From Planctomycetota bacterium (GTDB lineage Bacteria > Planctomycetota > UBA8108 > UBA1146), in NCBI GenBank assembly GCA_012960845.1, contig DUAN01000207.1, positions 1 to 50,293 of the forward strand: a stretch of DNA of 50,293 bases. Reading direction: 5' to 3'. Both the position numbers and the translations under genes were made by a program. Every line of letters begins with the position of its first letter. Position 1 is the stretch's first letter. The notes below the pieces were generated by a model. It was not told the DNA's origin and made no database searches. It saw only the letters and a program-made list of their open reading frames with translations. Below, one piece after another: positions 2,561 through 47,000 of this stretch.

Positions 2561-3724
2561 ATGGCGAGGAAGGGCAAGATCTTCAATCGATTGGGGCGTC
2601 CAAAGCTCCTTCGAAAGGTGATCTCTCGAACCGAAACGGTGGTCGGGGTGGTTCTTCTGCTGTCCATCGTCGCAATGGCAGCCTGGCTGATCGAACAGCG
2701 AGACCACTACGATCCGGGCGAGCGAGATATCGAGACCTCCCTGCTGGTTGCGCAATCGGTCGAGGACAACCTCTACAAGACCTCTCTCAAGAGATGGCGA
2801 GATCCGACACTGGTCGAGAACGGTACCGTTGTCGTTCGCCTGGGGCCCTTCGATCCATCTCTTCTCTCTGGTGGTTGGCGAGCCAATGGAGATCCACAAG
2901 TTTTCGATCGGGATCACCTGTTCGAGAAGATCAATGGTCAGGCGGAGCAGTACCTGAAGTTTGGCTTCGAGAAGTTGCAAGTACTACAACTCGAACATCC
3001 GGCATCGGGTCGCTATGTGGATGTTTACCTCTACGACCAGGGCACCTTTGAGGGAGGGCTGGGAGTTTACCAGGAGATGCGTGGTAACAAGCCGGTCAAA
3101 CAGGAGGGGAGTGTTCAGTACACGGCGAACTCGCTGGGAGCGATTGGAATCTGTGGTTCCCTCTTCTTCCAGATCACCGCCGATGAACCGGGTGCCATGG
3201 TGGAAGAGATGACTGCACGAGTGGTGGCGGCACTTTCACAGCGAAACATCGGTGGACCTCTTCCGGCAGGGTATGTGACTCTTCATCAAGGGATGCAGAT
3301 CGGGTTCGATCGTATCGCCTACCAGCCAACCAATGTCTTCCAGTATCGATTTGCCAGTAACTTCTGGTTTGCCAGCATCGAGGGCGCTAAAGATGCACGG
3401 ATCTTCATGCACTCGGCTGTTTCTGACGCTGCTGCACAGCAGTTGTTTGAGCAGTTGCACCGTGAACTTCTGGAGGATTACCATGTCATCGATTCATCGC
3501 CGGGGCAGTTACTGCTGAAACACCAGTTCCTGGAGACTTTTTTCGGGTTGGCGCAGGAAGGTGTGCATCTCTTTGGCATCGAGCGGCAGCCGGACCGCTC
3601 CGCCGCTGAGGCTCAGTTGGCTTCGCTACGCCTGCGACTCACTGGCACCGCACCAACACAGGACTGGGAGGCAGACGGTGGAGATGCGCCGGGCTACGAT
3701 ACCGAGGAGGAGGGGGAGAACTGA
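2561..3724 (+). CDS. Membrane-anchored DUF6599-like protein
   Basis: A 387-residue protein starting at ATG with GGAGG eight bases upstream. Residues 27-45 form one transmembrane helix, placing the rest probably outside the membrane. The segment around residues 110-210 (FEKINGQAEQYLKFGF, VDVYLYDQG, GLGVYQEM) resembles the DUF6599 family as I know it. The C-terminal half repeats a similar alpha/beta pattern (QIGFDRIAY, FWFASIEGAKDARIF), so it may hold two related domains. No catalytic residues are apparent. Its stop overlaps the next start (TGATG), coupling it to the DUF362 and polyferredoxin genes, so it is likely an accessory subunit of that redox system. Role in the complex is inferred from context only. 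Confidence 0.8.
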   Translation: MARKGKIFNRLGRPKLLRKVISRTETVVGVVLLLSIVAMAAWLIEQRDHYDPGERDIETSLLVAQSVEDNLYKTSLKRWRDPTLVENGTVVVRLGPFDPSLLSGGWRANGDPQVFDRDHLFEKINGQAEQYLKFGFEKLQVLQLEHPASGRYVDVYLYDQGTFEGGLGVYQEMRGNKPVKQEGSVQYTANSLGAIGICGSLFFQITADEPGAMVEEMTARVVAALSQRNIGGPLPAGYVTLHQGMQIGFDRIAYQPTNVFQYRFASNFWFASIEGAKDARIFMHSAVSDAAAQQLFEQLHRELLEDYHVIDSSPGQLLLKHQFLETFFGLAQEGVHLFGIERQPDRSAAEAQLASLRLRLTGTAPTQDWEADGGDAPGYDTEEEGEN

Positions 3725-4818
3725 TGAATGATGCTGAAACTCCGAACCAACCCTCGAACTCCGGTGCCAGCAGCTCACCCCGGAAGAAGCCGATCCAGCA
3801 TCCCGAATACCAGAAGGCGCCGATGGAGCGACGCGTTTTCCTTGGCCGCCTCGGAGCGGCTGCCGGGTTGCTCGGTACAGCAGGTTACCTGAGTCTCGCT
3901 CCAGAAAAGTGGCCGCTTTCGCTCAGGGACAGCACCGGGCTTCTCAGCAAGCCGGTGCTGAAGCCAGTTCGGCTCGACGATTTCCGAGTGGCCAAGCCGA
4001 TCGGCCAGACTGCTGACGTTGGTATCGGTCGAGGAGGGACGCCCGACCAGATGCTTCGAAAGGCTCTCGATGCCGTGGGGGGAGTGAAGCACTACATCCA
4101 GCCCGGGGACATCGTGCTGGTGAAACCTAATGTGGCGTTTGATCGGGCCCCGGCTCTCGGGGCCACCAGCCAGCCGGCTCTCATCGAGGCGTTGATCCAG
4201 ATGTTGCTGGTCGATTGTCGAGCTCAAGAAGTGAGAGTTTGCGACAACCCCATCGAGTCACCGTCCGATTGCTTCATGAAGACGGGGCTTCGCAAGGCCA
4301 CCGAGAAAGCGGGTGGTCGCGTCTACCTGCCCGATCCCAATTCTTTCAAGCAACTCAACACACCGGGCGCCACCTTGATCGAGGAATGGGCCTTCTTCCA
4401 CCGCCCCTTCACCAATGTGGATAAGGTGATCGGAGTCGCTCCGGTCAAGGATCACAACCTCTGCTTCGCATCGATGGGAATCAAGAACTGGTACGGATTG
4501 CTCGGAGGACGTAGAAATCAGTTTCACCAGGACATTCATGAGATCGTTTCCGATCTGTCCATCATGATTCGGCCGACCTTGACGATTCTCGATGGAACCA
4601 AGGTGCTGATGGAGAACGGACCGACCGGCGGGGATCCTTCCAATGTCGTGACCCGCGATGTGGTGATGGCATCTCTCGATCCTGTGGCCCAGGACGCCTG
4701 GGCTTTCCAGCATCTCTTGCAGAGAGATCCACATCAGTTGCCAGAGTATCTCCACAAGGCAGAGCTGAAGGGTGCAGGCAGGGTAGATTTTGAGGGTCGG
4801 CTCCGGGAGATCACTTGA
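3724..4818 (+). CDS. Tat-exported DUF362 domain protein
   Basis: A 364-residue protein. A twin-arginine motif (RRVFLGRL, Arg36-Arg37) precedes a hydrophobic stretch [12 protein letters not shown], so export by the Tat route as a folded protein is likely, usually with a cofactor. The DUF362 signature is seen in [29 protein letters not shown] and [17 protein letters not shown]. No CxxCxxC ferredoxin motif is fused here, unlike many DUF362 proteins; the cluster-binding function may be supplied by the next gene. The start overlaps the previous stop by one base, and the stop overlaps the next gene by four. The reaction is unknown for the family; an oxidoreductase or electron-carrier role is inferred from the neighbours. 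Confidence 0.85.
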
Positions 4819-6479
4819 ACACTGCTTCTGAGATTCCTGAACCAGAAAAAACTCTACCTTCATCTACGGTGAAGATGTTTCCGCCTCCTGTACGAAAGAA
4901 GTTGCGGCTGACCAATGTGAGAATCGTCTCGCAGGTCTTTTTCTTCACCGCCTTCCTGGTTTTGTGCTGGCTGACCTGGACATCGAGGCTGGAGGGGTAT
5001 CCGGTCTCTCGAATTCTCGAGATGGATCCGTTGGTGATGATCTCCACCATGCTGTCTACCGGATATGTGTACCGGTATCTGGGCTGGGGATTGCTGGTGC
5101 TGGGATTGACGCTGCTGGCGGGGAGAGTCTTCTGCAACTGGATCTGCCCCTATGGCACGCTGCATCAGTTTGTCGGCTGGCTCTTCAACGTACACAAGGC
5201 CAAGGAAAATTTCGACCGCAATCGATACCGGGATATGTACTTCTTCAAGTACGCAGTCGTGACGGTCTTGCTGATCATGGCGGCGATGGGCGCTCTTCAG
5301 ATCGGATTGCTCGATCCCATCTGCCTGATGTATCGCACCGTGGCCACGGTGGTCGCCCCGATGGTTGACATGTCGATCGATGCGATTCCTGGAATCGACC
5401 CGCTATGGGTCGACCAGATCAAGTTTGCCCCAGGGGTGCCGAGCCGTATTTTTGTCGGGTCCTTCTGGATCGGCCTTTTCATGCTGGTTCTGGTGGGGGC
5501 CAATCTCTACGTGCCGAGATTCTTCTGCCGGGTGTTGTGTCCGCTGGGAGCTCTCCTGGGAGCGGTCTCGCGATTTTCGCTGGTTCGAATCAATCGTGAC
5601 GTTCACAAGTGCACCGATTGCAACATGTGCATGAACCGTTGCGAGGGGGCGGCGGATCCGCAGGCTGCCATCCGGGTCAGCGAGTGCTTCTCATGCTTGA
5701 ATTGCATCGATGATTGCCCGGAAGACGCTCTTTCTTTCACCATGGTTGGACTCGATACAAAGCAGGTAAAATTGCTTCCCGATGTATCCAAGCGAAGGAT
5801 GTTCTTCGCAGGAGTCGTCGGCGCGCTCGGCTATCCGTTTCTCAAGATCCACGGCACCAATACCGATGCGAACTTCTCACCGGACTTGATTCGACCACCG
5901 GGCTCGGTCGAAGAGTCGGAGTTTCTCGAGAAGTGCATCAAGTGTGATCAGTGCATCAACTCCTGTCCAACCAATGTCCTGCAGCCTGCAACCTGGGCAG
6001 AGGGAGGTCTTGAGGGGCTGTGGACCCCGGTCATGAACTTCAACATCGCGCATTGTCAGTTGAAGTGCACGCTTTGCTCCGAGGTGTGTCCTACCGGTGC
6101 GATCCGCAAGATCACCGTCGAGGAAAAGCTGGGAAAGGGAGACTTCGTCGAACAGGGTCCGATCGTCCTGGGAACCGCTTTCTTCGACAAGGGACGCTGC
6201 TTACCTCACGCGATGGATATTCCCTGTGTCGTTTGCGAAGAGGTTTGTCCGGTTTCGCCGAAAGCGATTCAGACTCACGATGAAGAGGTGAAGACGGTTT
6301 TCAATCAGGTGGTTGTACTGAACAAGCCGTTCATCGTGCCAGATCTTTGCATCGGCTGTGGAATCTGCCAGGCGGAGTGCCCCGTGCGAGATGATCGGGC
6401 GGTTTACGTCACTGCTGTTGGAGAGAGTCGATCGTCGGAACGCAGTTTGCTGCTGAAAAAGCGCTCAGGTTCAGGGTAG
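4815..6479 (+). CDS. NapH/MauN-like membrane polyferredoxin (4Fe-4S protein)
   Basis: A 554-residue integral membrane iron-sulfur protein that probably passes electrons between the quinone pool and extracytoplasmic partners. About four to five hydrophobic helices are visible (near 35-52, 82-103, 146-170, 214-235 and a short one near 333). Two CxxxCP motifs follow helices, at Cys107/111 and Cys238/242, as in NapH. Ferredoxin-type clusters start at Cys266, near Cys291, at Cys374, Cys414, a looser C-x8-CxxCxxxCP block near 460-475, and Cys512. The start is TTG overlapping the DUF362 stop (TTGA), with GGGAG six bases upstream; an ATG 20 codons later is an alternative. It is translationally coupled to DUF6599 and DUF362. 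Partners are inferred. Confidence 0.88.
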
Positions 6480-6511
6480 GATCATCTACCTACCAGAGCC
6501 CAGGAGGAATG

Positions 6512-7747
6512 ATGGAGCAAAACGAAGTAGGTCGACGCGACTTCCTCAAGAAGAGCCTGGTCGCAGGGGCGAGCCTGTCGGCAATCGGTGGCATGGCGGG
6601 CGCCCAGGATCCTCCGAAGGATACGGACAAGAAGACCGATCAAGATCCAGAAGGTGTCAAACTGCTGCCCAAGGTTCCTCGTCGGGAACTGGGTGGTACC
6701 GGCAAGAAGATTCCGATCCTGCTCTTCGGTTGCTCGCAGGTGTTCGATCCCAAGTATGACAAGATGCTCCATCGTGGTTTCAAGGAGGGTGTCGATTATC
6801 TCGACACCGCACTGGTCTATGCAAGAGGCGAGAGCCACAAGACACTGGCCCCATTCGTCAAGCAGGTCGGACGCGAAAACCTCTGGATCACATCGAAAGC
6901 GCCACCACGAAACAACCGAGCGACCGTCGAAACTTACACACGAGACCTCGGTACTTGCCTCGAGCAACTTGAGGTGAAACACCTCGATCTCTTCTTCATG
7001 CACTATGTTTCCGATCCGAAGTACCTCGAGAAGGAATACATCGAGATGGGGGATCGATTGAAGAAGCAGAACAAGACTGACTTCTTCGGGTTTTCCTGCC
7101 ACGACGGTAATGTCGTCGAACTGATGAACAAGGCGGCCAAGGTTGGCGGCATCGATGCCATCATGTTCCGTTACAGTTTTGGCCAGTACGGCGACAAGGA
7201 ACTCAATAAAGCGATCGACAACTGCAAGAAGGCAAAGATCGGCCTGATCGCGATGAAGACCCAGAAGTCGGTGCCCGCTGAGCAGGAAGAAGTGATCAAG
7301 TTCAAGTCGAAGAGCTTCACTCTTGGTCAGGCAAAGCTGAAGGCGGTATGGGCCGACGAGCGCATCGATTCCGCCGTTTCACATATGGACAGCCTCGAAC
7401 TTCTCAAGGAGAACGTTGCTGCGGCCAAGTCGCCGATCAAACTGGGGATGAGCGATTTTCATCAACTCAACCGACTGGCAGCCTGTACCAGCGGTTTCTC
7501 CTGCATGGGATGCAATCATCACTGTCAGCCGAAGATCCTGGCGGACACGCGAGTTTCCGATGCTCTTCGTTATCTGATGTACTACGAGTGCTACGACGAG
7601 CCGGAACGGGCGAAGGAACTCTATCGCAGCATGTCTTCGGCCGAGCGACAGATCGATGGAGTAGACTTCGTCGATGCAATGCATGCATGCCCCGAAGGAG
7701 TCGACATTGCGACTCGACTGAAGCTGGCCCAGCAGTTACTCGCGTAG
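6512..7747 (+). CDS. Tat-exported aldo/keto reductase with Cys-rich C-terminus
   Basis: A protein of 411 residues. A Tat motif (GRRDFLKKSLVAGAS) near residue 8 marks it for folded export. The AKR barrel is recognisable from VDYLDTALVYARGE (the Asp/Tyr catalytic region), LWITSKAP, LDLFFMHYV and FFGFSCHDG. The C-terminus has C-x5-CMGCNHHC and a further ACPEGVDI about 65 residues later, resembling a split ferredoxin motif. I prefer the ATG at 6512 over the ATG at 6509, because AGGAGG ends four bases before it. It follows the polyferredoxin by about 30 bp on the same strand and may receive electrons from it. The substrate is unknown. It ends 27 bp from the convergent efflux operon. Confidence 0.85.
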   Translation: MEQNEVGRRDFLKKSLVAGASLSAIGGMAGAQDPPKDTDKKTDQDPEGVKLLPKVPRRELGGTGKKIPILLFGCSQVFDPKYDKMLHRGFKEGVDYLDTALVYARGESHKTLAPFVKQVGRENLWITSKAPPRNNRATVETYTRDLGTCLEQLEVKHLDLFFMHYVSDPKYLEKEYIEMGDRLKKQNKTDFFGFSCHDGNVVELMNKAAKVGGIDAIMFRYSFGQYGDKELNKAIDNCKKAKIGLIAMKTQKSVPAEQEEVIKFKSKSFTLGQAKLKAVWADERIDSAVSHMDSLELLKENVAAAKSPIKLGMSDFHQLNRLAACTSGFSCMGCNHHCQPKILADTRVSDALRYLMYYECYDEPERAKELYRSMSSAERQIDGVDFVDAMHACPEGVDIATRLKLAQQLLA

Positions 7748-7774: not shown

Positions 7775-10700
7775 TCACGCAGTTTCTGTGCGACCTGAAA
7801 ACCAGCGGTACAGCGCCGGCAGCACCAGTAGCGTGAGTACCGTGGAGGTCACCAGTCCACCGACGACGACGGTCGCCAACGGCCTTTGAACCTCGCTTCC
7901 ACTTCCGGTAGCAAACAGCAGTGGAATCAAACCGAGTCCGGTCGTCAGTGCCGTCATCAGCACCGGGCGAAGTCTCATCGAAGCTCCCTGGATCGATGCT
8001 TCATCGATTCCAAGGCCTTTCTTGACCAGTTGGTCGAGGCATGTGATCAGCACCATGCCATTTTCCAGTGCGATTCCAAACAATGCGATGAAACCGACCG
8101 ATGCCGGAACTGATAAGTTCTGTCCGGTGATCATCAACGCGACCACTCCACCGACCAGAGCCAGCGGTATGTTGAGCAAGATGAGCAGTGTGTTTCCCAG
8201 CGAGTTGAAGTTTCCGAACAGCAGCAGGAAGACCCCGAGCAGTGTCATCGGAATGACCAGTAGTAGTCTCTTGTTCGCCTCCTGTTGCAATCGGAACTGC
8301 CCTCCCCAGGTCACGAGATACCCCGGAGGGAGATCGATCCGTTGATCCAGTTCGGCTTGTGCTTGCTTGACGAAGGAACCGATGTCTCGTCCCTGAACAT
8401 TGCACTGGATCGAGATGAATCGTTGATTCTGTTCCCTGGTGATCTGGCGCGGCCCGACAATCTCCTTCATTTCCACCAGCTCTGAGAGCGGCACCTTCAC
8501 ACCGTTGGGAGCGTCGATCAGGATCGCAGAGATCGATTCCCGGGTATCTCGATACTGCTGCTGGTAACGGACCACGATATCGAATCTTCGAATACCCTCG
8601 AAGATCTGCCCGGCCACATGGCCGCCGACCGCTGCGCGAATCACATTTTGCACCTGGGAAACGTTGATTCCGTAACGAGCGATGGCCCCGCGGTTGACGC
8701 GGATGAGGAGTTGAGGAGTTCCACTGACCTGGTCCACCTGGATATCGACGGCACCTTCAACGGTGCTGACTACCGAGGCGATCCTGTCGGCCTCTCGTTT
8801 CAACACATCGAGATCTTCACCGAACAACTTGATTGCCAGCTCGGCACGAACACCTTCCAGTAGTTCATCGACATTCATCTCGATGGGCTGGGTGAAGTTC
8901 ACGACCACCCCAGGGATGCCTTGCAGTGCATCGCGCATCGAGTGTTCAAGATCTTCGAGACTTTCTTTCGAGTCCGGGTCCAACAATACGAAAACCTCGG
9001 CGCTATTGATGGGGTCGGCGTGCGCTCCCACTTCGCCACGGCCAATTCGGCTCACGACTTCGGTGACATCAGGAAGTGCGATCAAGCGCTTTTCTGCAAG
9101 AAGGGTGATCCGCTTGCTTTCATCGATGGCGATCGAGGGAGCCATCGTCAGTCTGACGACAATCGTCCCCTCATTGAGTTTTGGTGTGAATTCAGATCCG
9201 AGCTGAGGGAATGTGACGATTCCAATCGACAGCAGTCCCAGAGCGAGTAGGGCGGACAACGAACGGTGATTCACGAAGAAGCCCAGGAGCGGTCTGTATC
9301 CTCTCAGTAGTGCCCGAACCAGAGGAGTTTCTTTCGCGGTCGATCCAGGAGCCGACTTTTTCATGATGATGGCGCTCAGAACCGGAGCCAGTGTCAGTGC
9401 ATAGAGCAGAGAACCTGCCATCGCCAGAGCCACGGTATAAGCCAGTGGCCTGAACATCTTTCCTTCCACACCCTGAAGAGTGAAGAGGGGCAGGAAGACA
9501 AGGATGATGATGGCGATGGCGAAGGCGATGGGACGACCCACCTCGCAACATGCAGTGAGTACGGCGTCCTTCTTTGAAAGGGCAGAATCTCTGAATCGCC
9601 GATCGACATTTTCAACCATGACGATGGCACCATCGACCAGCATGCCGATGGCTATGGCAAGTCCGCCCAGCGACATCAGGTTGGCAGAGATCCCGAAGTA
9701 TCTCATCAGTACGAATGCAAAGAGGACAGAGAAGGGTACCGAGAGCGCGACGACGATGCTTGGCCGTAATCCACCCATGAAGATCAGTAGTACCAGTATC
9801 ACCAGACCGATTCCCTGGAACAGAGCGGTTTGAACCGTGTTCACACACGCTTCGACGAGGCTCTTCTGTTCGTAGTAAGGAACGATGCGCACTCCGGTCG
9901 GAAGGATGGTTTGGATCTCCTTGAGTTTTTCCTCTACTCGTTCGATGACGGTGGAGGAATTGGTCCCGTACAGTTTGACGACCATTCCGGAGACCACTTC
10001 ACCTTCCCCGTTGTGTGTCTGGAGTCCTCGACGGATGGTCGAACCGACGCCAACCTCGGCCAGGTCATGGAGATAAATTGGACGGCCATCGACGGATTTC
10101 ACCACGATGCTCTGAAGGTCCTCGATCGAGGCCGTGAGCCCGATCGAACGCACCACGAATTCCTCGTCGTTCTTCTCGATGAACTGAGCACCGACATTGA
10201 GATTGTTCGCCTCGACCTGTTCGATGAGTTCCTGTAGAGAAACTCCGTAGCGAAGAAGCGCTTGTGGCTGGACGCGCACCTGGAACTGCTTCTCGTCGCC
10301 TCCGATCCCCAGAACCTCTGTTACACCAGGTACCGATTGAAGATGTCGTTTGACGATCCAGTCCTGGATCGATCGAAGCTCCTCCAGTGAGTGAGTGCCG
10401 CTGGAATCCTCGAGGTAGTAGAAGAGGATCAGACCCATGCCGGTGGAGATGGGGCCCATCTGGGGTACACCGAAGCCGGCAGGGATCTCCTCACGAGCTT
10501 CTTGCAGTCTTTCCCCGACCAACCTCCTGGCGAAATAGGTATCCATCCCGTCCTCGAAGTAGACGTTGACGACGGACAGTCCAAAGTTTGAGACCGATCG
10601 GATCTTTTCCGTGCCAGGGAGACCGCTGAGAGATGCTTCGATGGGATAGGTGACGAATTTCTCGATCTCCTCGGGGGCCAGTCCCTCGGTGATGGTGAAC

Positions 10701-10846
10701 ACCTGGACGAGATTCGGAGAGACATCCGGAAAAGCGTCGACCGGAATCTTCTGGAAACTGAAGTACCCGGCGGCCATCACGATGATGCCGATTACCAGCA
10801 CCATCAGAGGAGACCGAAGGCAGAAACGGATCAGTGGCTCCAGCAT
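7775..10846 (-). CDS. czcA: CzcA-type heavy-metal efflux RND pump
   Basis: A 1023-residue inner-membrane proton/metal antiporter, the normal length for HME-RND pumps. It starts with a hydrophobic helix after LIRFCLRSPL. The VDGAIVMVENVDRR motif in the fourth helix carries the proton-relay Asp405. The porter domain has FTQPIEMNVDEL near residue 650, which is the CzcA/CnrA pattern rather than the Met-triad pattern of copper-exporting CusA, so Zn/Co/Cd/Ni is more likely than Cu or Ag. It lies 12 bp after the adaptor gene and is the last gene of a four-gene minus-strand operon. The family is certain; the metal is inferred from motif similarity. Confidence 0.93.
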   Translation of the reverse strand: MLEPLIRFCLRSPLMVLVIGIIVMAAGYFSFQKIPVDAFPDVSPNLVQVFTITEGLAPEEIEKFVTYPIEASLSGLPGTEKIRSVSNFGLSVVNVYFEDGMDTYFARRLVGERLQEAREEIPAGFGVPQMGPISTGMGLILFYYLEDSSGTHSLEELRSIQDWIVKRHLQSVPGVTEVLGIGGDEKQFQVRVQPQALLRYGVSLQELIEQVEANNLNVGAQFIEKNDEEFVVRSIGLTASIEDLQSIVVKSVDGRPIYLHDLAEVGVGSTIRRGLQTHNGEGEVVSGMVVKLYGTNSSTVIERVEEKLKEIQTILPTGVRIVPYYEQKSLVEACVNTVQTALFQGIGLVILVLLIFMGGLRPSIVVALSVPFSVLFAFVLMRYFGISANLMSLGGLAIAIGMLVDGAIVMVENVDRRFRDSALSKKDAVLTACCEVGRPIAFAIAIIILVFLPLFTLQGVEGKMFRPLAYTVALAMAGSLLYALTLAPVLSAIIMKKSAPGSTAKETPLVRALLRGYRPLLGFFVNHRSLSALLALGLLSIGIVTFPQLGSEFTPKLNEGTIVVRLTMAPSIAIDESKRITLLAEKRLIALPDVTEVVSRIGRGEVGAHADPINSAEVFVLLDPDSKESLEDLEHSMRDALQGIPGVVVNFTQPIEMNVDELLEGVRAELAIKLFGEDLDVLKREADRIASVVSTVEGAVDIQVDQVSGTPQLLIRVNRGAIARYGINVSQVQNVIRAAVGGHVAGQIFEGIRRFDIVVRYQQQYRDTRESISAILIDAPNGVKVPLSELVEMKEIVGPRQITREQNQRFISIQCNVQGRDIGSFVKQAQAELDQRIDLPPGYLVTWGGQFRLQQEANKRLLLVIPMTLLGVFLLLFGNFNSLGNTLLILLNIPLALVGGVVALMITGQNLSVPASVGFIALFGIALENGMVLITCLDQLVKKGLGIDEASIQGASMRLRPVLMTALTTGLGLIPLLFATGSGSEVQRPLATVVVGGLVTSTVLTLLVLPALYRWFSGRTETA

Positions 10847-14674: not shown

Positions 14675-14724
14675 ACCAGCGTTTCTATTTCGAGTAGCAG
14701 GTGGAGTACATGGGGAGGGTTTTC

Positions 14725-17700
14725 ATGTCTCGTGATTCAAGAACTCTGATGGACGATCCGCAGTGGATCTCCGTCATTTCGGCGATCCGATGGTGGAGTT
14801 TGATGGTGGTGATGACGGTGGGAATCGTCGACATCACGCCGGCACAATGTGTCATCGATGCCGAGCCGATGGGTCTCTCCTTGACCGACACTCATGTGGT
14901 CATGGATGGAAACTGGGCTGCGATCAGCGATGGAATTACCATCGAGGTGCTCAACCGAGACACCGGAGCCTGGCTCAGTCACCAGTCCATCGATTTGCTA
15001 GGCGCCACCCTTGGATCGATCTCTCTCGATGGAAATGACCTGGTGGTCGGCCTCGCGGGTGAGATCTGGTTCTTCTCCTTCGATGGTCTCAGCTGGAACC
15101 AGAGCAGTATCATCTCGGGTGTAGGTACGGGGCTTGCCGATCCGAGCTGGGGATCTGTGCTCGATCACTCGGGAGATCTTCTCGCCGTGGGAGCCGCTGC
15201 CACCGACGAGGTCTATTTCTACACCAGAGTCTTCGATGGAGTAGGAGCCTCGAGCTGGATTTCTTCGGGGACAGTCGCTGGTACCCTCGGTTCGGGACTC
15301 GGAACCACCGTCTCGCTGAGCGGTAATTTTGTCAGCGTCACGGCTCCGGCTGTGTCCGAGGTGCTGACCTACGAGTATCAGGGTATTGCCACCAATCAGT
15401 GGCTGTTGGATGTGACCCACCCGCTGGCGGGTGGCTCGGGAACCTCGATCAGTCTCGATCAGAGTACCGGGGAATTGCGGTTGCTCTTGCCGTCAGGTCT
15501 GGGAGCCAACATCTTTCTTCGAGGAGCCACAGGATGGGCTCCTGAATCTACATTCATTTTCACCGCTCTGGTGGATCGAAGGATGGAGCTGTCGGGTGAT
15601 CATGCCCTGGTCACGACCGACTGCGGGCTGCGTCTATTCAGCAGGAGCGTAGCGGGGTGGAATTCCGGATTTCGCATAGAAACGGTCAATGCCGTCGATC
15701 CGTGCCTGTTGGTACCGGGAGGTAGCAACGTCCAGCCACTCGCTCTCACCGCTTCTTCAGCGATGTTTGTCTCGCAAGCGGGGACCCAATTTCTGGCCAG
15801 CCTGGTCTTCACTGATTGCAACGGTAATGGTGTTCTCGACAGCTGTGATCTTGCTGTGGGAATTCCAGACTGTGATGGAAATGGGATTCCTGACAGCTGT
15901 GATTTCGCTACCGGCCTGGTGGACTGCAACAACAACAATATCCTGGATCCATGTGAAATCGTTCAAGGGTTCTCGGTCGATTGCAATGGCAATGGTGTGC
16001 CGGATAGTTGCGATCTAGCCGCTGGAATGGACTGCAATGGAAACAGCCTGGTGGATAGTTGCGAGATCGATGCGGGTGATGTTTCGGACTGCAATCTGAA
16101 CAGTATCCCGGATACTTGTGATGCACTGGCCGGAACTCCCTATGACACCACGCCTCCGGTGATTGCCGGAATGCCAGCAGACATCACCATCACCATCGGT
16201 AGTGGCCAGTGTGATTCTGCTGCCAACTGGACTGCTCCCACGGCATCGGATACTTGCTCCTTGACCACGATCAGTAGCAGCCACAATTCTGGTGATCTGT
16301 TCGCCTCGGGGGTGACCACCGTCATCTACACTGCGACAGATGAAGTGGGCAATGTCACTGAACTGAGTTTCCTGGTCACAGTCCTCGAACCGGATGCACC
16401 ATTCTTCATCTCGGTTCCGGGTACCATCATTGCGGCGGCCGATCCCTTGAGTTGTTCCACGGCAGTTACCTGGACTCCGCCCTTCGCTCTGGATACCAAT
16501 AACTGCTCGTTCCCGACCATCACCTCGGACCTTCTGCCTGGAGACATCTTTCAGATGGGGGCCACCACGGTCACCGTGACTGCCACGGATGCCTCGGGAA
16601 ATGCTGTCCAGTCCTCCTTTGTCGTCAATGTCGTCGACAGCAGTGCGCCGATCATCGAGCAGTTGCCTGACATGGTGATCAGTACCCAGCCAACCACCTG
16701 TCTCGGCGCTGCAATCTGGGCCGAGCCACAGGTCACGGATTGCTCCTCTTTCTTCGTGACCTCGACGAGTTCATCTCCTTCACTGGTCACCTTTGCAGGC
16801 CGGGTAGTCACCTACGTTGCGGTGGATGTCCTGGGAAGTTCATCTCAGATGAGCTTTTCGATCACCATCGTCGATGACACTCCTCCAACCCTCACGGGAG
16901 TGCCTGGAAGTGTGACCATGGTTCCGCCCGTGGGAACCTGTGGTGCGACTCTCGACTGGACCCTTCCGGTAGCATTTGACGGTTGTGGTGTGGTGAGTCT
17001 GGTCAGTGGTTTCGAACCTCCTGCAACTTTTGGAGTTGGATCCACGACCGTTACATATACCGCAACGGACACCAGTGGAAACGAGACGACACAGAGCTTT
17101 ACAGTGGATGTGTTGGACATTGACTTCCCGGTATTCACATCTTCCCCGGGATTGATTGAGGTGGTGGCATCGGGAACCGAGTGTAGTGCTGTGGTGACCT
17201 GGGTAGAGCCTGTGGCAGTGGATTGCACGAGTGTGACGATGACTTCTTCCCACTTGCCTGGATCGGTTTTTCCGATTGGATCTCACCAGGTGACCTATAC
17301 AGCCACGGATCCACTGGGAAGGGCGTCGACGATAGCCTTCACGGTTTCAGTGGTCGATGTGACCGCGCCAACGCTGGTGGGAGCCCCGGCAGACATGACA
17401 GTCACCACCAATCCCACCGAATGTACGGCGATCGCCACCTGGCCGCAGCCGACCGCTGCGGATAGTTGTAGCATTGCGGTTCTCACGACCAATGTTGAAC
17501 CCGGCACTGCACTTCCAGTGGGGGTGACCGCAGTGACCTATACGGTCACTGACGAGTCGTTGAACACGGTCCTTCACACCTTTTTTGTCACGGTGACGGA
17601 TGCCGCTGCACCGGTCTTTGACATCACGATGGCCGACGTCCAGTCCGGTACCGACCTCGGGATCTGTGCGGCTCAGGTGTTCTGGACCGAACCCGTGATC

Positions 17701-20700
17701 AGTGACGACTGCACTGCTCCTACGGTGGTCAAGAGTCATCCTCAGGGAGCCTTTTTCGACCTGGGAACCACGACAGTGACCTACACCGCGACCGATGGGG
17801 GTGGCAATAGCACCTCGCAATCATTCAACGTCACCGTCACCGATGTCGAGGCTCCAGGGTTCTTCCAGATGCCAGCAAATCAGATCCAGGCTTGCTTGCC
17901 AGGGGATTGCACCGCTGCAGTGACCTGGACTCATCCATTGGTTCTCGACCATTGCGAAGCGGTGACCTTTCAGGTCAGTAATAATCCGGGAGACATTTTC
18001 CCGCTCGGCGATACGGTCGTGACATACACCAGTGCCGACTCCCTGCTGAACGAGAGTTCTCAGAGTTTCACAGTGACGGTGGTGGACCAGGAAGTTCCTT
18101 TCTTCACTTCGACCCTGCCAGACATCAATCTTCCGATAGAAGCAGGATTATGCACGGCACAAGCGACATGGGTGGATCCCACCGCCGAGGATTTTTGTGG
18201 AACTGTGACTCTTGGATCTAGCCATCCTTCTGGATTTCTCTTCAACATCGGCACAACTCCGGTGATCTACACCTGTATCGATGAGTCGGGAAATTCCTCT
18301 ACCTTGTCTTTCAATGTGACCGTTGCAGACATCGAGAATCCGCAGATCCTGACGATGCCGCAGAGTTTCTCGATCGGCACACAGGCAGATTCCTGTACGG
18401 GAATCCCGACCTGGGCCGAACCATCGGTTGTCGATTGCGACTCGGTCACCCTGGTCAGTACTCATGACAGCGGAGCCGCACTTCCTCTCGGCGATACCGT
18501 GGTGACCTACACTGCTACTGACTTCACCGGTAATCAGACGAACATGTCCTTTACCGTGACGGTGACAGATGGAGTGTCTCCTCAGTTCACCTCGGTACCG
18601 GCAAACCTCATCGTAACGACTCAACCAGGAAGTTGCGGTGCGGGAGTGAGTTGGGCGGAAGCGGTGGCATTGGATCACTGCTCTTTGGTGGCGATCAGTT
18701 ATGATCCTCCACAGGGGGCGACCTTCCCACTAGGAATCAGTGTGGTGACAGTCACGGCTCTCGATCAGGATCTCAACAGTAGTTCAGCGACCTTCACGGT
18801 CGAAATCGTTGATAACGAGAATCCCGTTCAGGTGTCGGGTCCGCCGGCGCAGGTCATTCTTGCAAATCCCGCTGGAACCTGTCAGGTGGCAGGGGCATGG
18901 GAGGTCCCTGCATTTGCAGATAATTGCACTACCAATCTGTCGGTGACCTCGACCCATCAACCCGGGGATATGCTACCCATCGGAGAGACTCTCGTGACCT
19001 ACACCTGTCAGGATGAAGGTCTCAATCAGGTCGAGACCAGTTTTTCTGTAGTGGTCGTCGATACCACCGCACCGACGATTGATTCGATGCCGTTCGATGT
19101 TGAAGTGGTCACAGCATTCGATGCATGCCAAGCGGTAGCGACGTGGGGGCTCCCTCAAGCGAGCGATTGCAGTGAGTTCATCATGGAGTCAGATGTGGCC
19201 AGTGGATCGATACTGGAGATTGGCATTCACATCATCAACTTCAACTTCACGGATGTGCATGGCAATGTTTCTTCCGATAGCATTCTGGTTCGAATCCTGG
19301 ACGGGGAAATTCCCCTCATCCATGGTTCCTTGCCCGATATCACCATCGATACCGCAGTTGGTACTTGTTCGGTGGTTGCGATCTGGCCTGAACCGACCAC
19401 CACCGATTGCACGGCCAGTGCACTCGAATCCAATCTGGCCAGCGGCTCATCTTTCTCGGTCGGAACCACGACGGTGGTGTACACCGCCAGCGATAGTGCC
19501 GGAAACCAGAGTAGCACCAGTTTCGATGTCACTGTTCTCGATGCGACTCCACCGGTGATCGTCACCATGCCACCAGACATGACCCTGGATTCTCCAGTGG
19601 GTGCTTGCCAGGTGGTCGCTACCTGGGCCGAACCGCAAGCGACGGATTGCGTCTCTTATCTGTTCAGTAGTGACGTACCCAGCGGGTCGCTGTTCCCCAT
19701 CGGGACCACGCCCGTCACCTACACAGCCACCGATCCGGTCGGGAATTCGAGTTCAGCCAGTTTCACGGTGACGGTGCTTGATGTCGAAGCTCCTCAGATC
19801 GTTACGATGCCTGCCAGTATCACTGTCGACTCGACGCTTGGATCGTGTACCGGTCTGGCGAGTTGGGAGCCCGCAACTGCCAGCGATTGCTCGACGATCT
19901 CTACCATCGAGGCGAGTCATGTCAGCGGCTCGGCGTTTTCTCTCGGGACGACGACCGTCACGTACACCGCCACAGATGTGTACGGGAATTCCTCCAGTGC
20001 CGATTTCCAGGTCACGGTTCTCGACGTCGAAACGCCAATCATCACGGATTTGCCTGCTCCAGTTGAAGTCGATAACACCCCGGGACTGTGCTCTGCTCCA
20101 GCGACCTGGTTGGCCCCAAGCTCCAACGATTGTTCCAGCGTCTTGATGACCAGCGACTTCTCCAGTGGGTCGACCTTTCCTGTCGGAACCTCACTGGTGA
20201 CCTACACCGCTGTCGATAGCAATGGGAACTCGTCACAGGCCAGCTTCGAGGTGATCGTGGCGGATGTGGAGGCACCCTTCTTTGTCAATGTCGCCTCTCA
20301 ACTGACCTTCTTCACCTCTGCTGGCGAATGCGTCGGTGTCGCGAGCTGGGATCCAGCTCAGGCGGGCGATTTATGTGGTTTTGCTACCGTTACCAGTAGT
20401 CATTCACCGGGCATGGTGTTTCCACTTGGAGACTCTCAGGTCACTCATACGGCAACCGATGAATCGGGCAATTCGATCACCCAGATCACCCAGATCACGA
20501 TGGTCGATGGGGAGGCCCCGGTCATCAGTGGCATGCCGCTCGACATCGTCCTCGAGGCACCCACCGGGGAGTGTTCAATTGCGGTGACCTGGGCCGCTCC
20601 CAGCACCACTGACTGTACTGCAGTCACACTGGTGGGAAGCGAAACTCCAGGGGCCCTGTTCCCGATCGGGGTGCATCCAGTGACCTACACCGCAACCGAC

Positions 20701-21756
20701 GTGCAAGGCAACATCGCCGAGCAGGACTTCACGATCACCGTGCTCGATATCGATGGGCCGACGATTGCCGACTTGCCGCTGGATCAACTACTCAGCAACG
20801 ATCCGGGTAGTTGCGGTGCGATGGCCAGTTGGATCGAACCGACCGCCAGTGATTGCAGTGATCTCGATCCTCTGGTCAGTTCTATCGCCAACGGTTCTTT
20901 CCTGGCTCCGGGACTGACGATAGTGACCTACACCGTCATCGATGTGCACGGCAATCAATCTCAGGCGAGTTTCAACATCGAAGTCGTCGATGATGTTGGG
21001 CCAATCATCAGTGGATTGCAGCGACTGGTTTCCAGTAATTCGAGTGCAGGACAGTGTGGAACCTCGGTCTTCTGGCCCGAGCCTACCACCGCGGATGATT
21101 GCGGCGTGGCCTCGGTCCAGTCGAGCGCGCCTGCTGGATCCTTCTTCCCGGTGGGAGAGAGCGTGGTCACTTACACCGCCATCGATGTCCACGGAAACTC
21201 CACATCCGCAGAGATGCTGGTGGTCGTTTCTGATGTGGAACCTCCGCAGGTGGTCAATCTTCCGGGACCGATCGTGACCAATCCAGATCCTGCAACTTGC
21301 ACTGCAACGGTGATCTGGGGAGTGATCAATTACATCGACAACTGCTCCGATGTCACCGTCAGTACCTCGCTACCTTCTGGTTCGATCATTCAGGTGGGTG
21401 TCACTGAAGTGCTGGTGACCGCAACAGATGCCTCGGGAAATACAACTACCGACATCTTCACGATCACCGTAGAAGAGTGCACGTCCGATTTCGTTCGAGG
21501 AGATGCAAATGATGATGGAACGATCGATATCACCGATGCAGTCGTGATCATCGGTTACATATTCCAGGGACTACAGTTCACCTGTCTCGATGCGCTGGAT
21601 GACAATGACGATGGTGTGGTCGACATTTCGGACGCCATCTATCACTTCGGTGTTCTGTTCACAGGAGGTCTACCACCACCTCCGCCATTTGATCAGTGTG
21701 GTATCGATCCGACAGAAGACTCACTGATCTGTGACCTGTATCAGAGCTGTCCCTGA
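14725..21756 (+). CDS. Giant secreted protein: beta-propeller-like, calcium-type repeats, 22 HYR domains, dockerin-like end
   Basis: A 2343-residue exoprotein. The frame is open from GTG 14701, but the ATG at 14725 has GGGAGGG five bases upstream and precedes a signal peptide ending near ITPAQC. Residues 40-360 are a Gly-rich repeat region resembling FG-GAP/propeller blades (SISLDGNDLVVGLAG). Residues 364-470 hold six DCNxNxxxDxC repeats. Residues 475-2251 hold 22 HYR repeats of about 80 residues, each with TATD.xGN and usually a Cys pair. The last 92 residues (FVRGDANDDGTIDITDAV, then a second DDNDDGVVDISDAI loop) are a paired EF-hand/dockerin-like module. HYR domains are known adhesive, immunoglobulin-like folds. 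The role is probably cell surface or matrix. It is a paralogue of the gene at 44007. Confidence 0.9.
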   Translation: MSRDSRTLMDDPQWISVISAIRWWSLMVVMTVGIVDITPAQCVIDAEPMGLSLTDTHVVMDGNWAAISDGITIEVLNRDTGAWLSHQSIDLLGATLGSISLDGNDLVVGLAGEIWFFSFDGLSWNQSSIISGVGTGLADPSWGSVLDHSGDLLAVGAAATDEVYFYTRVFDGVGASSWISSGTVAGTLGSGLGTTVSLSGNFVSVTAPAVSEVLTYEYQGIATNQWLLDVTHPLAGGSGTSISLDQSTGELRLLLPSGLGANIFLRGATGWAPESTFIFTALVDRRMELSGDHALVTTDCGLRLFSRSVAGWNSGFRIETVNAVDPCLLVPGGSNVQPLALTASSAMFVSQAGTQFLASLVFTDCNGNGVLDSCDLAVGIPDCDGNGIPDSCDFATGLVDCNNNNILDPCEIVQGFSVDCNGNGVPDSCDLAAGMDCNGNSLVDSCEIDAGDVSDCNLNSIPDTCDALAGTPYDTTPPVIAGMPADITITIGSGQCDSAANWTAPTASDTCSLTTISSSHNSGDLFASGVTTVIYTATDEVGNVTELSFLVTVLEPDAPFFISVPGTIIAAADPLSCSTAVTWTPPFALDTNNCSFPTITSDLLPGDIFQMGATTVTVTATDASGNAVQSSFVVNVVDSSAPIIEQLPDMVISTQPTTCLGAAIWAEPQVTDCSSFFVTSTSSSPSLVTFAGRVVTYVAVDVLGSSSQMSFSITIVDDTPPTLTGVPGSVTMVPPVGTCGATLDWTLPVAFDGCGVVSLVSGFEPPATFGVGSTTVTYTATDTSGNETTQSFTVDVLDIDFPVFTSSPGLIEVVASGTECSAVVTWVEPVAVDCTSVTMTSSHLPGSVFPIGSHQVTYTATDPLGRASTIAFTVSVVDVTAPTLVGAPADMTVTTNPTECTAIATWPQPTAADSCSIAVLTTNVEPGTALPVGVTAVTYTVTDESLNTVLHTFFVTVTDAAAPVFDITMADVQSGTDLGICAAQVFWTEPVISDDCTAPTVVKSHPQGAFFDLGTTTVTYTATDGGGNSTSQSFNVTVTDVEAPGFFQMPANQIQACLPGDCTAAVTWTHPLVLDHCEAVTFQVSNNPGDIFPLGDTVVTYTSADSLLNESSQSFTVTVVDQEVPFFTSTLPDINLPIEAGLCTAQATWVDPTAEDFCGTVTLGSSHPSGFLFNIGTTPVIYTCIDESGNSSTLSFNVTVADIENPQILTMPQSFSIGTQADSCTGIPTWAEPSVVDCDSVTLVSTHDSGAALPLGDTVVTYTATDFTGNQTNMSFTVTVTDGVSPQFTSVPANLIVTTQPGSCGAGVSWAEAVALDHCSLVAISYDPPQGATFPLGISVVTVTALDQDLNSSSATFTVEIVDNENPVQVSGPPAQVILANPAGTCQVAGAWEVPAFADNCTTNLSVTSTHQPGDMLPIGETLVTYTCQDEGLNQVETSFSVVVVDTTAPTIDSMPFDVEVVTAFDACQAVATWGLPQASDCSEFIMESDVASGSILEIGIHIINFNFTDVHGNVSSDSILVRILDGEIPLIHGSLPDITIDTAVGTCSVVAIWPEPTTTDCTASALESNLASGSSFSVGTTTVVYTASDSAGNQSSTSFDVTVLDATPPVIVTMPPDMTLDSPVGACQVVATWAEPQATDCVSYLFSSDVPSGSLFPIGTTPVTYTATDPVGNSSSASFTVTVLDVEAPQIVTMPASITVDSTLGSCTGLASWEPATASDCSTISTIEASHVSGSAFSLGTTTVTYTATDVYGNSSSADFQVTVLDVETPIITDLPAPVEVDNTPGLCSAPATWLAPSSNDCSSVLMTSDFSSGSTFPVGTSLVTYTAVDSNGNSSQASFEVIVADVEAPFFVNVASQLTFFTSAGECVGVASWDPAQAGDLCGFATVTSSHSPGMVFPLGDSQVTHTATDESGNSITQITQITMVDGEAPVISGMPLDIVLEAPTGECSIAVTWAAPSTTDCTAVTLVGSETPGALFPIGVHPVTYTATDVQGNIAEQDFTITVLDIDGPTIADLPLDQLLSNDPGSCGAMASWIEPTASDCSDLDPLVSSIANGSFLAPGLTIVTYTVIDVHGNQSQASFNIEVVDDVGPIISGLQRLVSSNSSAGQCGTSVFWPEPTTADDCGVASVQSSAPAGSFFPVGESVVTYTAIDVHGNSTSAEMLVVVSDVEPPQVVNLPGPIVTNPDPATCTATVIWGVINYIDNCSDVTVSTSLPSGSIIQVGVTEVLVTATDASGNTTTDIFTITVEECTSDFVRGDANDDGTIDITDAVVIIGYIFQGLQFTCLDALDDNDDGVVDISDAIYHFGVLFTGGLPPPPPFDQCGIDPTEDSLICDLYQSCP
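15814..16133 (+). repeat. Six DCNxNGxxDxC calcium-type repeats (coding)
   Basis: Six tandem units of about 17-20 residues with the pattern DCN-G-N-G-x-x-D-S-C-D/E. The spacing of Asp/Asn resembles thrombospondin type 3 calcium-binding loops, and the two Cys could form a disulfide in each unit. The same unit occurs 18 times in the paralogue at 44007. Confidence 0.85.
16147..21477 (+). repeat. Array of 22 HYR domains (coding)
   Basis: The array covers 5331 bp, i.e. 22 modules of about 81 residues. Module starts follow (T/E/N)xP at each boundary, and ends follow VTV(L/V/T)D. Most modules have a first Cys near residue 20 (e.g. GSC, GTC) and a second near residue 36 (SDCS, TDCT, DHC). Sequence between modules is diverged at DNA level, so the array is old rather than newly amplified. 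Confidence 0.9.
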
Positions 21757-31970: not shown

Positions 31971-32954
31971 ATGTCATCCGAGCAGTTCTCGATCACCCCT
32001 GAGGATCGCTTCATCGATCGGCGCACCATCATCCGCGGAATGGGCCTTGGAATGGCAGGGCTCTCCACTCTTGGAGTCACCCACTTTCTCCACGGGATCT
32101 CTGGCAGCTGGATGCCACAGGATGGGAGTCGGTCGGCCATCGAGCCTGCAATTGGCGAACTGTGCAAAGATGTCTTCCCAGGCCAGCGATCTACCAGGTT
32201 CGACATTGCACCGAGAACTCTCACTCCAGAGAAGATCTCCTCGGTCTATAACAACTTCTACGAGTTCACCACGCAGAAGAATCGGGTCTGGCAGATGGCC
32301 CGCAACTTCAAGGTCGATCCGTGGAAGATCGAGGTCGCAGGTGCTGTCGAAAAACCATTCACTCTCGATATCGAAGATCTGATCAAACTGGCTCCGCTGG
32401 AGGAGAGACTTTACAGGTTTCGTTGTGTCGAGACCTGGGCCATGCAAGTTCCCTGGGTCGGTTATCCCCTGAGTAAGTTGATCGATCGGTGCAAGCCACT
32501 CGGTAAGGCCAAGTACATCCGATTTGTTTCCATTCTCGATGAGGACCGGCTCCCGGGGCAGAAAGACAAGCAGTGGCCCTGGCCATACTTCGAAGCATTG
32601 CGACTCGATGAAGCCAGGAACGATCTGGCGATGGTGGGAGTAGGAATCTACGGCCACGGACTTCCGATGCAACATGGCGCACCGTGGCGTGTGGTCGTGC
32701 CGTGGAAGTATGGCTACAAGTCGCCCAAGTCGATCGTGAAGATTGAATTTACCGAGGAGAAACCCCCGACCTTCTGGAATCAGGCGCTGCCCGATGAATA
32801 CGGGTTCTTTTCCAACGTCGATCCATCCAAACCTCATCCTCGGTGGAGCCAATCGATGGAAAGAGATATTGGCACCGGAATGAGGCGACCCACTTTGCTG
32901 TACAACGGGTATGCAGAGCAGGTGGCGAAACTCTATACCGGCAAGGAACACTGA
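31971..32954 (+). CDS. msrP: Protein-methionine-sulfoxide reductase catalytic subunit MsrP
   Basis: A molybdopterin enzyme of 327 residues that repairs methionine sulfoxide in periplasmic proteins. An N-terminal twin-Arg motif (DRRTIIRGMG, Arg17-Arg18) with a hydrophobic stretch gives Tat export. The YedY/MsrP signature is clear: YNNFYEFTTQKNRVW, WKIEVAGAVEKPF, and RFRCVETWAM with the Mo ligand Cys152, then GLPMQHGAPWRVVVPWKYGYK. Length and motifs are typical. The start has GGAAGGA seven bases upstream. The usual heme membrane partner MsrQ is not adjacent; the polyferredoxin cluster or a distant msrQ could supply electrons. The 3' end is duplicated in tandem beyond the stop codon. Confidence 0.95.
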   Translation: MSSEQFSITPEDRFIDRRTIIRGMGLGMAGLSTLGVTHFLHGISGSWMPQDGSRSAIEPAIGELCKDVFPGQRSTRFDIAPRTLTPEKISSVYNNFYEFTTQKNRVWQMARNFKVDPWKIEVAGAVEKPFTLDIEDLIKLAPLEERLYRFRCVETWAMQVPWVGYPLSKLIDRCKPLGKAKYIRFVSILDEDRLPGQKDKQWPWPYFEALRLDEARNDLAMVGVGIYGHGLPMQHGAPWRVVVPWKYGYKSPKSIVKIEFTEEKPPTFWNQALPDEYGFFSNVDPSKPHPRWSQSMERDIGTGMRRPTLLYNGYAEQVAKLYTGKEH

Positions 32955-43729: not shown

Positions 43730-43970
43730 CGATGGTGATCACAGCCCGAGATATTTTTCTTCAGCACCATTATTTTGAGCATGGTGAGGAATCTCGGGTA
43801 GTCAGGAATGCCAGGAACGCTAAATTAGGTGTCCTGACCCTTCCATCCACAGCAAAGGAAATAGAACTGACGAGCCTTACAGGTAGGTCATTCATTTCCT
43901 GATCAAGATACATGTTGAAACCCTGTTCCCGGGAAGAGGTGTGCCCTCTCCCCGATCGATCAATTCCCCA
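43730..43970. other. Intergenic region before second HYR gene, nothing recognised
   Basis: Between the heme terminator and the leader hairpin of the next gene I see no convincing promoter, gene or repeat. The short frame 43699-43902 runs through the terminator and is rejected. Confidence 0.5.
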
Positions 43971-43987
43971 CCCGTGAGAATCACGGG
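43971..43987 (+). promoter_or_regulatory. Leader hairpin directly before ribosome site of second HYR gene
   Basis: CCCGTGA (43971-43977) and TCACGGG (43981-43987) form a perfect 7-bp stem with a GAA loop. The ribosome site GGAGGT begins at 43994, seven bases later. There is no T-run, so it is more likely a translation or stability element, or an operator, than a terminator. Confidence 0.5.
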
Positions 43988-44006
43988 AGTACTGGAGGTC
44001 CAGATC

Positions 44007-47000
44007 ATGAAGACGCTACCCCTCGCCTTCCTGGTTGTTCTGTTGAGTGTGATTTTAAGTTCCGGTTCCCAGGTCATCGCCCAGTGCGAGCCTGGATTGG
44101 ACTGTAACGCAAATGGAACCGCTGATAGTTGTGATATAGCCGACAACACCAGCAGCGATTGTGATGGAAATGGTGTGCCTGACGAATGTCAGATCGCTCT
44201 CATTCCATCGCTGGATTGCAACCAGGACCAGATCCTGGATGCGTGTGAAGGAATCCTTGAGGATCTTCTCACCGTTGCCGCACCAGGTGTGAACTATGGC
44301 TCGTCATCCGATATCTCGGGTGACCGTATGGCCATCGGTGCACCGGATGGGACCTCAGCAGGTGTGATCACCGGAGCCGTTTACATGTACCGCAACACCG
44401 GATCGCGGTGGGTACAGGAAACGACGATTGTGCCACCCGATTCGACAGCAAGTGCCCTGTTCGGCTGGAGCGTGGCCATCGATGGAGACCTTCTCATCGT
44501 TGGATCGCCTGGAGCAACAGGAGGATCACTCGGTCAGGATAGCGGAGCAGCGTACATCTACAGGCACGATGGCACCAACTGGATCTTTGAGGTCAAACTC
44601 GAAGCATCCAATGGAGTGTCCAATGACGAGTTCGGGATCTCGGTCGGGGTATCGGGTGAAAGAGCCGTGGTGGGTGCATGGAGAGCATTGACTGGGGTCA
44701 TGCCCGGGTCTGCATACGTGTTCAGTAACAATGGTTTTTCCTGGAACCAGGACCAGATCTTCGAGTCGAACGATCCTACCCCGGCGAAACGATTTGGTGG
44801 GGCAGTTGCGATCGATGGAAATACCATCGCAATCAGTGACCAGAGATCGGATCTCGGTTTCCTTCAGCAAGTCGGTGGCGTGTTCCTCTACACGAGCATT
44901 TCTCAGACCAGCTGGCTATTCACTCAGAAGGTCACTGCCCAGGATCCACAAGAAGGAGCCCAGTTTGGTAGATCCCTCGATCTGTCAGGGGATCAACTAC
45001 TGATCGGAGCCCCGATCACAGATAGTCAAATTGGTGCGGCTTACTTGTTCGATCGTGCCGGGTTCGTGTTCACTCAGAGCCATAAGTTCTCGGTGCCAGC
45101 GAGCATTCATGGGCAACTGGGCAACGATGTCGCCATCAGTGGTGAGGTCTTGATTTCTGGTTCTTGGCGGGCAGACGGCAGCACCGGCATGCTGTACTTG
45201 CATCAGCCGGATGGAGCGGGTGGTTACACCACAAGCGCCTTCACCCCGACCAATGCCCTTCAGGGAGACCGCTTCGGTTGGAGCGTCGCCGCAGGCGGCC
45301 GCTGGGTCGTCGGAACCTCATCTTCCACAGAATTCGCGGTGATCGATCGCATGATCGACGCACCGGATTGCAACTCGAATGGAATTGATGACCCCTGCGA
45401 TATCTTCCAGGCGATCAGCCAGGACTGTGATCTGGATGGAATTCCAGATGCATGCCAGATTGCTAGCGGGGTTTCTTCTGACTGTGATCTGGACGGGATT
45501 CCAGATCATTGTGAGATTGCAGACGGCACCGAGCTCGACTGTAACCTCAACGATGTCATCGATAGTTGTGATATTGCTGGAGCGACCAGCCAGGACTGCA
45601 ACATCAACGGTATTCCGGATGATTGTGAAGCAGACTGCAACTTGAATAACATCGCAGATGAGTGCGAGTTGAGTTCTGGAGCCGCCACCGACTGCAATGC
45701 CAATGGATTCCTTGATTCTTGTGATTTGCAGTTCGGTTTCGCCATCGATTGCAACGCGAATCAGATTCCTGACAGTTGCGACATAGCGAGTGGTACAGCG
45801 GTTGATTGCAACAATAACAATGCACTCGATATCTGTGAAATCACCATCGGGATTGCCGATGACTGCAACTTGAATCTGATGATTGACCAGTGCGAACTCG
45901 ATTCAGGATTGACTGAAGATTGCAATTTCAACTCAGTTCCTGACATCTGCGACATCGCATATGGCCTTTCGATGGACTGTAACGGCAACATGAATCCTGA
46001 TGAGTGCGAACTGATGACTGGTGCGCAGCAAGACTGCAACCAGAACGGTACCATCGATGACTGCGAGCTGTTGGCCGGATCGTCCTTTGACTGTGATTCA
46101 AATGGTGCTCCTGACGAGTGTGATCTCGCAGCTGGTGCACTGGACTGCAATGGAAATGCAATTCCAGACAGTTGCGAAGTGAATGCTGATCCCAACCCTC
46201 CGGTGATCTCTGGACTTCCGGTTGAGGTGGTGGTCCTTGCGGACCTGCAAGGGTGTAGCGCCGTGGCGACATGGGATCCGGCGGTAATCACCGATGACTG
46301 TGGTATTTCCAGCTCATTCTCAACTCACACCTCTGGCAGCGTCTTCGCTGTGGGTTCGACAGCAGTGCTGGTTTCCGCAACAGACGTCAGCGGAAACACC
46401 ACTGAACAGTTATTCAATGTCGTCGTTCTCGATGATCAGTTGCCAGTTCTTTCCAATGTTCCGAACAATCTCAGTGTGGAAAATGATCCAGGACTGTGCA
46501 CAGCACAGGTGATATGGGCGGAGCCGCTGACAGCGGACAACTGTCTCAGTGTCACTCTCGTTTCTGACCACAACTCCGGAGATGCTTTCCCAGTCGGCAC
46601 GACCCTCGTGACCTACACTGCGACTGACGGTAATGGAAACATCAGCCAAGACGTTTTCGAAGTGACTGTCCAGGATGTGGATCTGCCCTCAATCGTTGGA
46701 TTGCCTGGCAGCGTGATCGTGAACTCGAACCCAGGACTGTGTACTGCACTCGTTTCCTGGGCTTCACCGAGTATCGTGGACAACTGCCCAGGATCGACCT
46801 TCAGTTCCGATCACCAGCCTGGTGATCAGTTCCCGGTAGGAACGACGCAGATCAACTACCTGGCTACCGATGCGAATGGAAACACCTCGGCTGCGACCTT
46901 CGACCTGACAGTGGTCGATAACGAGATGCCCATCGTGTCCGGTATTCCGAGTACGGTCTCACTTCCCAATGATCCAGGTAGTTGCGGCGCAACTCATGCA

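Follow-up and report, generated by a model that had tools for sequence, protein, structure and literature searches.

The window, by which we mean the whole stretch of 50,293 nucleotides analysed here, a contig from a Planctomycetota metagenome-assembled genome, carries at 2561-7747 on the + strand a cassette of four genes: a DUF6599 gene (2561-3724, 387 aa; Pfam PF20244, E 2e-16), a DUF362 gene (3724-4818, 364 aa; PF04015, E 9e-39), a polyferredoxin gene with a TTG start (4815-6479, 554 aa; many Fer4 Pfam models) and an aldo-keto reductase (AKR) gene (6509-7747, 412 aa; PF00248, Aldo_ket_red, E 4e-16). The Pfam matches of all four proteins exceed the curated cut-offs. The DUF6599 and DUF362 genes overlap stop to start in TGATG, the DUF362 and polyferredoxin genes in TTGA, and the AKR gene follows after a gap of 29 bp with a purine-rich aggagga ahead of its start; an earlier note on this DNA had described three genes overlapping in this way with an AKR gene close behind, and that is the arrangement found. 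Both flanking genes, which encode a SASA-family esterase (957-2447) and an efflux-pump-like protein (7775-10846), lie on the - strand, so the four-gene operon stands alone. Elsewhere in the window, the + strand encodes MsrP, the Tat-exported catalytic subunit of a methionine sulfoxide reductase (31971-32954, 396 bits), beside which no MsrQ gene was recognised, and two giant genes of more than 2000 codons, one with 19 HYR domains (14701-21756) and one open at its end (43941-50291).

The query for a scan of public genome contigs was an alignment made up solely of DUF362 proteins from cassettes, with a peptide pattern that fixes the KN..G motif, and the best-matching 80 loci, i.e. those closest to the query, were taken. 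Neighbours were tallied by HMMs built from clean sequences, the AKR HMM being trained on cassette AKRs; a model made from the single sequence of the window AKR gave at least 110 bits for most cassette AKRs. Among these 80 loci, chosen by DUF362 similarity, DUF6599 adjoins DUF362 in 72 of the 76 that are testable and the polyferredoxin adjoins it in 71/77, and an AKR gene lies within 5.5 kb on the same strand as DUF362 in 55/61. AKR frames of at least 100 bits, counted over 835 kb, number 62 on the + strand vs 1 on the - strand. One locus (L139) is near-identical to the window cassette. The earlier note had made its proposal depend on frequent adjacency of the first three families and on a linked AKR, both of which these counts bear out. 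Going by the phyla named in record titles, the cassette is spread over at least 12 phyla, its hosts being Planctomycetota, Acidobacteriota, SAR324, Gammaproteobacteria, Desulfobacterota, Verrucomicrobiota, Hydrogenedentota, Sumerlaeota, Armatimonadota, Poribacteria, Schekmanbacteria, Wallbacteria and UBP4. DUF6599-DUF362 pairs with no adjoining polyferredoxin came mostly from Desulfobacterota (L189, L190, L195, L218). Beyond lineage-local neighbours, no extra conserved genes were found around the cassette in the loci surveyed.

The arrangement is not invariant. First, in most Verrucomicrobiota loci that have an AKR gene, this gene lies upstream of DUF6599. Second, the AKR is missing from 6 of 61 loci (L181, L183, L187, L190, L202 and L210) and the polyferredoxin from 6 of 77 DUF362 loci. 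Because some loci do without one or the other, parts of the cassette can work separately, which counts against a single unit.

Across the 48 loci having all four genes, pairwise distances computed for one protein correlate with those computed for another at 0.86-0.94, with a maximum of 0.21 after permutation (999 permutations): the four cassette proteins diverged together. A chance neighbourhood is ruled out by this co-divergence, together with recurrence in many phyla and the 62 vs 1 strand bias. DUF362 and the polyferredoxin are 59-78% identical between phyla with little regard to host phylum, and the block therefore appears to have moved by horizontal transfer. A genome of another family than that of the window (G030) has the cassette, with 76-85% identity in the three best-conserved proteins. 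In Planctomycetota, DUF6599 is present in 51 of 246 genomes, and the polyferredoxin family occurs in 37 of these 51 genomes vs 14 of the 195 that lack DUF6599.

Residues 1-310 of the polyferredoxin match NapH and the remainder matches NapG. Hydrophobic segments at 32-59, 88-112, 140-172 and 207-251 form four clear membrane helices, CxxxCP motifs stand at 107 and 238, and four-Cys clusters at 266 and 291, the cysteines of these motifs and clusters being 100% conserved. Two clusters precede and four follow an internal twin-arginine motif. Each of the 28 cysteines in the clusters and CxxxCP motifs is conserved at 98-100% across 60 homologs, and the total of two CxxxCP motifs plus six groups of four cysteines agrees with the two motifs and about six clusters reported earlier. 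RR or KR is found ahead of segment 5 in nearly all homolog rows shown, and the 20-residue stretch after cluster 2 falls below the hydrophobicity cut-off, as a weakly hydrophobic TMD5. The protein thus has the features of dual Sec-Tat NapH-NapG polyferredoxins: a NapH half, and RR before TMD5 followed by four clusters predicted to be periplasmic. In the polyferredoxin of deltaproteobacterium MLMS-1 (Q1NSB0), NapH and NapG are likewise fused and RR stands ahead of TMD5, and reporter fusions showed that Tat is needed for its C-terminal domain (PMC5449189). Judged from its sequence, the cassette polyferredoxin is a new member of this described family. The same paper, in which NapGH is a quinol dehydrogenase passing electrons from quinol to the periplasm, makes no mention of DUF362 (PMC5449189). 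The earlier reading had recognised the Cys motifs of the polyferredoxin but had overlooked the NapH-NapG fusion and the internal Tat motif, as well as the LarA-like fold of DUF362 discussed below.

DUF6599 and polyferredoxin matches lie in a single open frame of 743-859 aa at 14 places in the 246 Planctomycetota genomes, mostly in families f46 and f75. At one of these loci (L114, 8789-11248), Pfam confirms one protein with both parts, and DUF362 adjoins it. As DUF6599 is fused to the C-terminal NapG-like end, it is expected outside the cytoplasm, beside the NapG-like domain. These natural fusions and the adjacency counts support one functional unit in the envelope; the earlier note had read the tight gene coupling as one complex.

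The AF2 model of DUF6599 (pLDDT 88) has a membrane helix at residues 23-46 and a two-part alpha-beta domain; this single N-terminal hydrophobic helix makes it the membrane-anchored protein that had been noticed. No fold match was obtained for the model in the PDB at E<1e-3, and no conserved Cys or His was found in DUF6599. Without conserved Cys or His residues or a solved relative, a scaffold or docking role is likelier than catalysis, and we propose that DUF6599 is a scaffold or docking subunit with a predicted extracytoplasmic domain. Outside the cassette, DUF6599 was found directly after an AKR gene three times (L119, L120 and L121), with no DUF362 or polyferredoxin nearby. In L119 (375-3731), AKR, DUF6599 and L-lactate permease genes stand in a row on a short contig without DUF362, which gives a hint of a substrate class. 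At another locus (L133, 8480-12998), RnfB-, RnfC- and RnfD-like genes are followed by a DUF6599 gene, so DUF6599 may also pair with another redox complex.

In the AKR, the tetrad D99, Y104, K130 and H165 and the signal-peptide residues R9 and R10 are 100% conserved among 53 relatives, and the C-terminal motif of four cysteines (C332, C335, C339 and C394) is 87-100% conserved in the same set. Four conserved cysteines are enough for one [4Fe-4S] cluster, and the AKR appears from its sequence to be a Tat-exported enzyme with a predicted Fe-S motif. An N-terminal RR is present in DUF362 as well, and it is conserved among relatives in both proteins, which upholds the identification of two Tat proteins. 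AKRs normally depend on NAD(P)H, which is not expected in free form in the periplasm, and an Fe-S cluster would have to feed the AKR without a flavin, two points that count against the unit proposed below.

Of the 16 PDB fold matches at E<1e-3 to the AF2 model of DUF362 (pLDDT 84), 15 bear descriptions of LarA-type enzymes (racemases of lactate or malate, and their relatives); the remaining one is a Thermotoga maritima protein with no annotation. The LarA matches, with E values of 1e-5 to 2e-4 and TM scores (query) of 0.34-0.43, predict a LarA-like fold for DUF362. K242, H244, K254, H268, D290 and D324 are invariant in relatives; a set of 25 DUF362 proteins collected by family score, and mainly from elsewhere than the cassette, keeps K242, H244, K254 and N255 throughout and H268 almost throughout. 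In the best local alignment of profiles, H244, K254 and H268 stand opposite a His, a Lys and a His of LarA. Its support is weak (probability 8.6%, E 0.004 for one comparison), and the register comes solely from this local alignment with the deeper sequence set, homology with LarA not being detected in the whole-domain, first profile and global comparisons. In this same weak alignment H244 falls on LarA His174, and the invariant Asp174 of DUF362 was placed by eye at the position of LarA His108, for which there is no obvious match. In LarA, the cofactor is tethered on Lys184 and the nickel bound by His200. His108 and His174 are the catalytic pair of the L. plantarum enzyme, a further His completes nickel coordination, and there are LarA homologs with a single catalytic His (PMC12611868). 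Pfam groups DUF362 with the LarA family in clan CL0471 (PMC11770544). The cassette DUF362 protein matches DUF362 only in Pfam, Lar_N (PF09861) not being found in it.

In the window genome, LarB, LarC and LarE score above cut-off, and no Lar_N match, hence no LarA, was found anywhere. About 15% of genomes are reported to have larB, larC and larE without larA (PMC11796402). Among Planctomycetota lacking LarA, LarC is present in 39/44 genomes with DUF362 vs 52/90 without it (Fisher p 3e-4, kinship ignored); in Desulfobacterota it is equally common with DUF6599 (27/33) and without (68/80). All 25 sampled planctomycetes with LarC, without LarA and DUF362, match LarB and LarE, nearly all above cut-off. 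We rejected LarC co-occurrence as proof of a nickel-pincer cofactor, because there is no difference in Desulfobacterota and the pathway is retained in many genomes that lack both proteins; the Planctomycetota enrichment is a lead only. In the family of the window genome, several genomes (G015, G043, G083 and others) keep LarB, LarC and LarE with neither LarA nor DUF362, and a further nickel-pincer user may thus exist there.

DUF362, by its predicted fold and the register of its key residues, is a concrete candidate for one user of the nickel-pincer cofactor. We hold it as a tentative and rather doubtful possibility that DUF362 represents a second nickel-pincer-type class, a client of larBCE in the absence of larA, through which the cassette would exchange hydride with the quinone pool via a NapGH-like wire, where LarA enzymes return it to their substrate. 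If so, it would be a respiratory, extracytoplasmic nickel-pincer oxidoreductase, and DUF362 would be among the missing larBCE clients in larA-less genomes.

Our preferred interpretation, which we consider probable, is that the products of the four genes work as a single functional unit on the outer side of the cytoplasmic membrane, in which a wire resembling NapGH leads from quinol to the periplasm and supplies two Tat enzymes. Electrons would be exchanged with the quinone pool by the NapH-like half of the polyferredoxin. Its NapG-like half, exported by the internal Tat motif, would pass them along four periplasmic [4Fe-4S] clusters to the Fe-S AKR and to the LarA-fold DUF362, both Tat-exported, with the membrane-anchored DUF6599 docking on the NapG half as a tether. 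Outside the cytoplasm, the electrons of quinol would most likely go into the reduction of a carbonyl, a 2-oxo acid or a sugar-type compound, and DUF362 might carry out hydride transfer with the help of a firmly bound cofactor, which may be a nickel-pincer nucleotide attached to K254. Not all parts of this scheme are equally firm. The cluster chain, the export motifs and the fusion of the putative wire can be read in the sequence. The direction from quinol to periplasm is the most likely one by analogy with NapGH; a physical complex with the AKR as final acceptor is what we infer from the whole, and the cofactors are guesses. A hydroxy- or oxo-acid substrate is likewise a guess, weakly pointed to by the LarA fold and by the one lactate permease neighbour in L119.

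Electrons could also flow in reverse: DUF362 or the AKR would oxidise a sugar or 2-hydroxy acid in the periplasm, and the quinone pool would receive the electrons by way of the polyferredoxin. The first step of LarA catalysis does take a hydride off a 2-hydroxy acid (PMC12611868), and the permease gene after an AKR-DUF6599 pair would suit such an oxidation; but this neighbour is a single case and the known NapGH runs from quinol to the periplasm (PMC5449189), and we regard reverse flow as unlikely. Alternatively, DUF6599, DUF362 and the polyferredoxin might form the redox unit, the AKR being a separate exported enzyme of the same pathway that takes no electrons from it. The six AKR-less cassettes, the upstream position of the gene in Verrucomicrobiota and the AKR-DUF6599 pairs that stand apart from DUF362 and the polyferredoxin are consistent with a separate AKR; the same-strand AKR in 55/61 loci, the 62 vs 1 bias and the conservation of the AKR Fe-S cysteines all argue for its membership, and make a separate enzyme rather improbable. 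A system of envelope repair or maturation, in which quinol electrons repair or modify exported proteins or cofactors, would fit the lack of a recurring transporter or pathway gene around the cassette (housekeeping over catabolism) and has a precedent in MsrPQ acting on methionine sulfoxide (PMC5449189), but two catalytic-type proteins with metabolic folds and a patchy spread by horizontal transfer, unusual for core repair, make it very improbable.

In conclusion, the cassette is one known electron-transfer module with new partners, and as a unit it is undescribed in the literature searched: none of the DUF362 papers appears to describe the four genes together, and no mention of DUF6599 was found. 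The novelty claimed in the earlier note thus holds for the cassette but not for the polyferredoxin, whose family had already been described (PMC5449189). Present in at least 12 phyla, cultivated sulfate reducers included, and carried by the isolate Desulfosarcina alkanivorans PL12 (L204), the cassette seems to be without a described function, and it gives the DUF362 and DUF6599 families a testable context.

Each component can be set beside a known system. The AKR resembles aldo-keto reductases by its Pfam match and intact D-Y-K-H tetrad and differs from them by Tat export and the extra C-terminal four-Cys motif. DUF362 resembles the LarA superfamily in predicted fold and in Pfam clan, and the weak alignment would put H244, K254 and H268 in register with the catalytic His, the cofactor-tethering Lys and a nickel-ligand His. 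It differs by its Tat export, the lack of a Lar_N match and of an obvious His108 equivalent, and by its link to a protein of electron transfer; a racemase can do without electrons from outside. As proposed for the cassette, MsrPQ delivers quinol electrons to a Tat-exported enzyme, but it does so with a haem membrane partner and a Mo enzyme that have no sequence relation to the cassette proteins. The polyferredoxin shares with the MLMS-1 protein and NapGH a NapH-like membrane part with two CxxxCP motifs and cytoplasmic clusters, a twin-arginine before the fifth membrane segment and a NapG-like, putatively periplasmic part with four clusters. Three cytoplasmic clusters are counted in the published family (PMC5449189), compared with two four-Cys groups and two CxxxCP motifs in the cassette protein. 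Finally, unlike NapGH of nitrate respiration, the cassette comes without nitrate reductase genes, the partners of its polyferredoxin being DUF362, DUF6599 and an Fe-S AKR.
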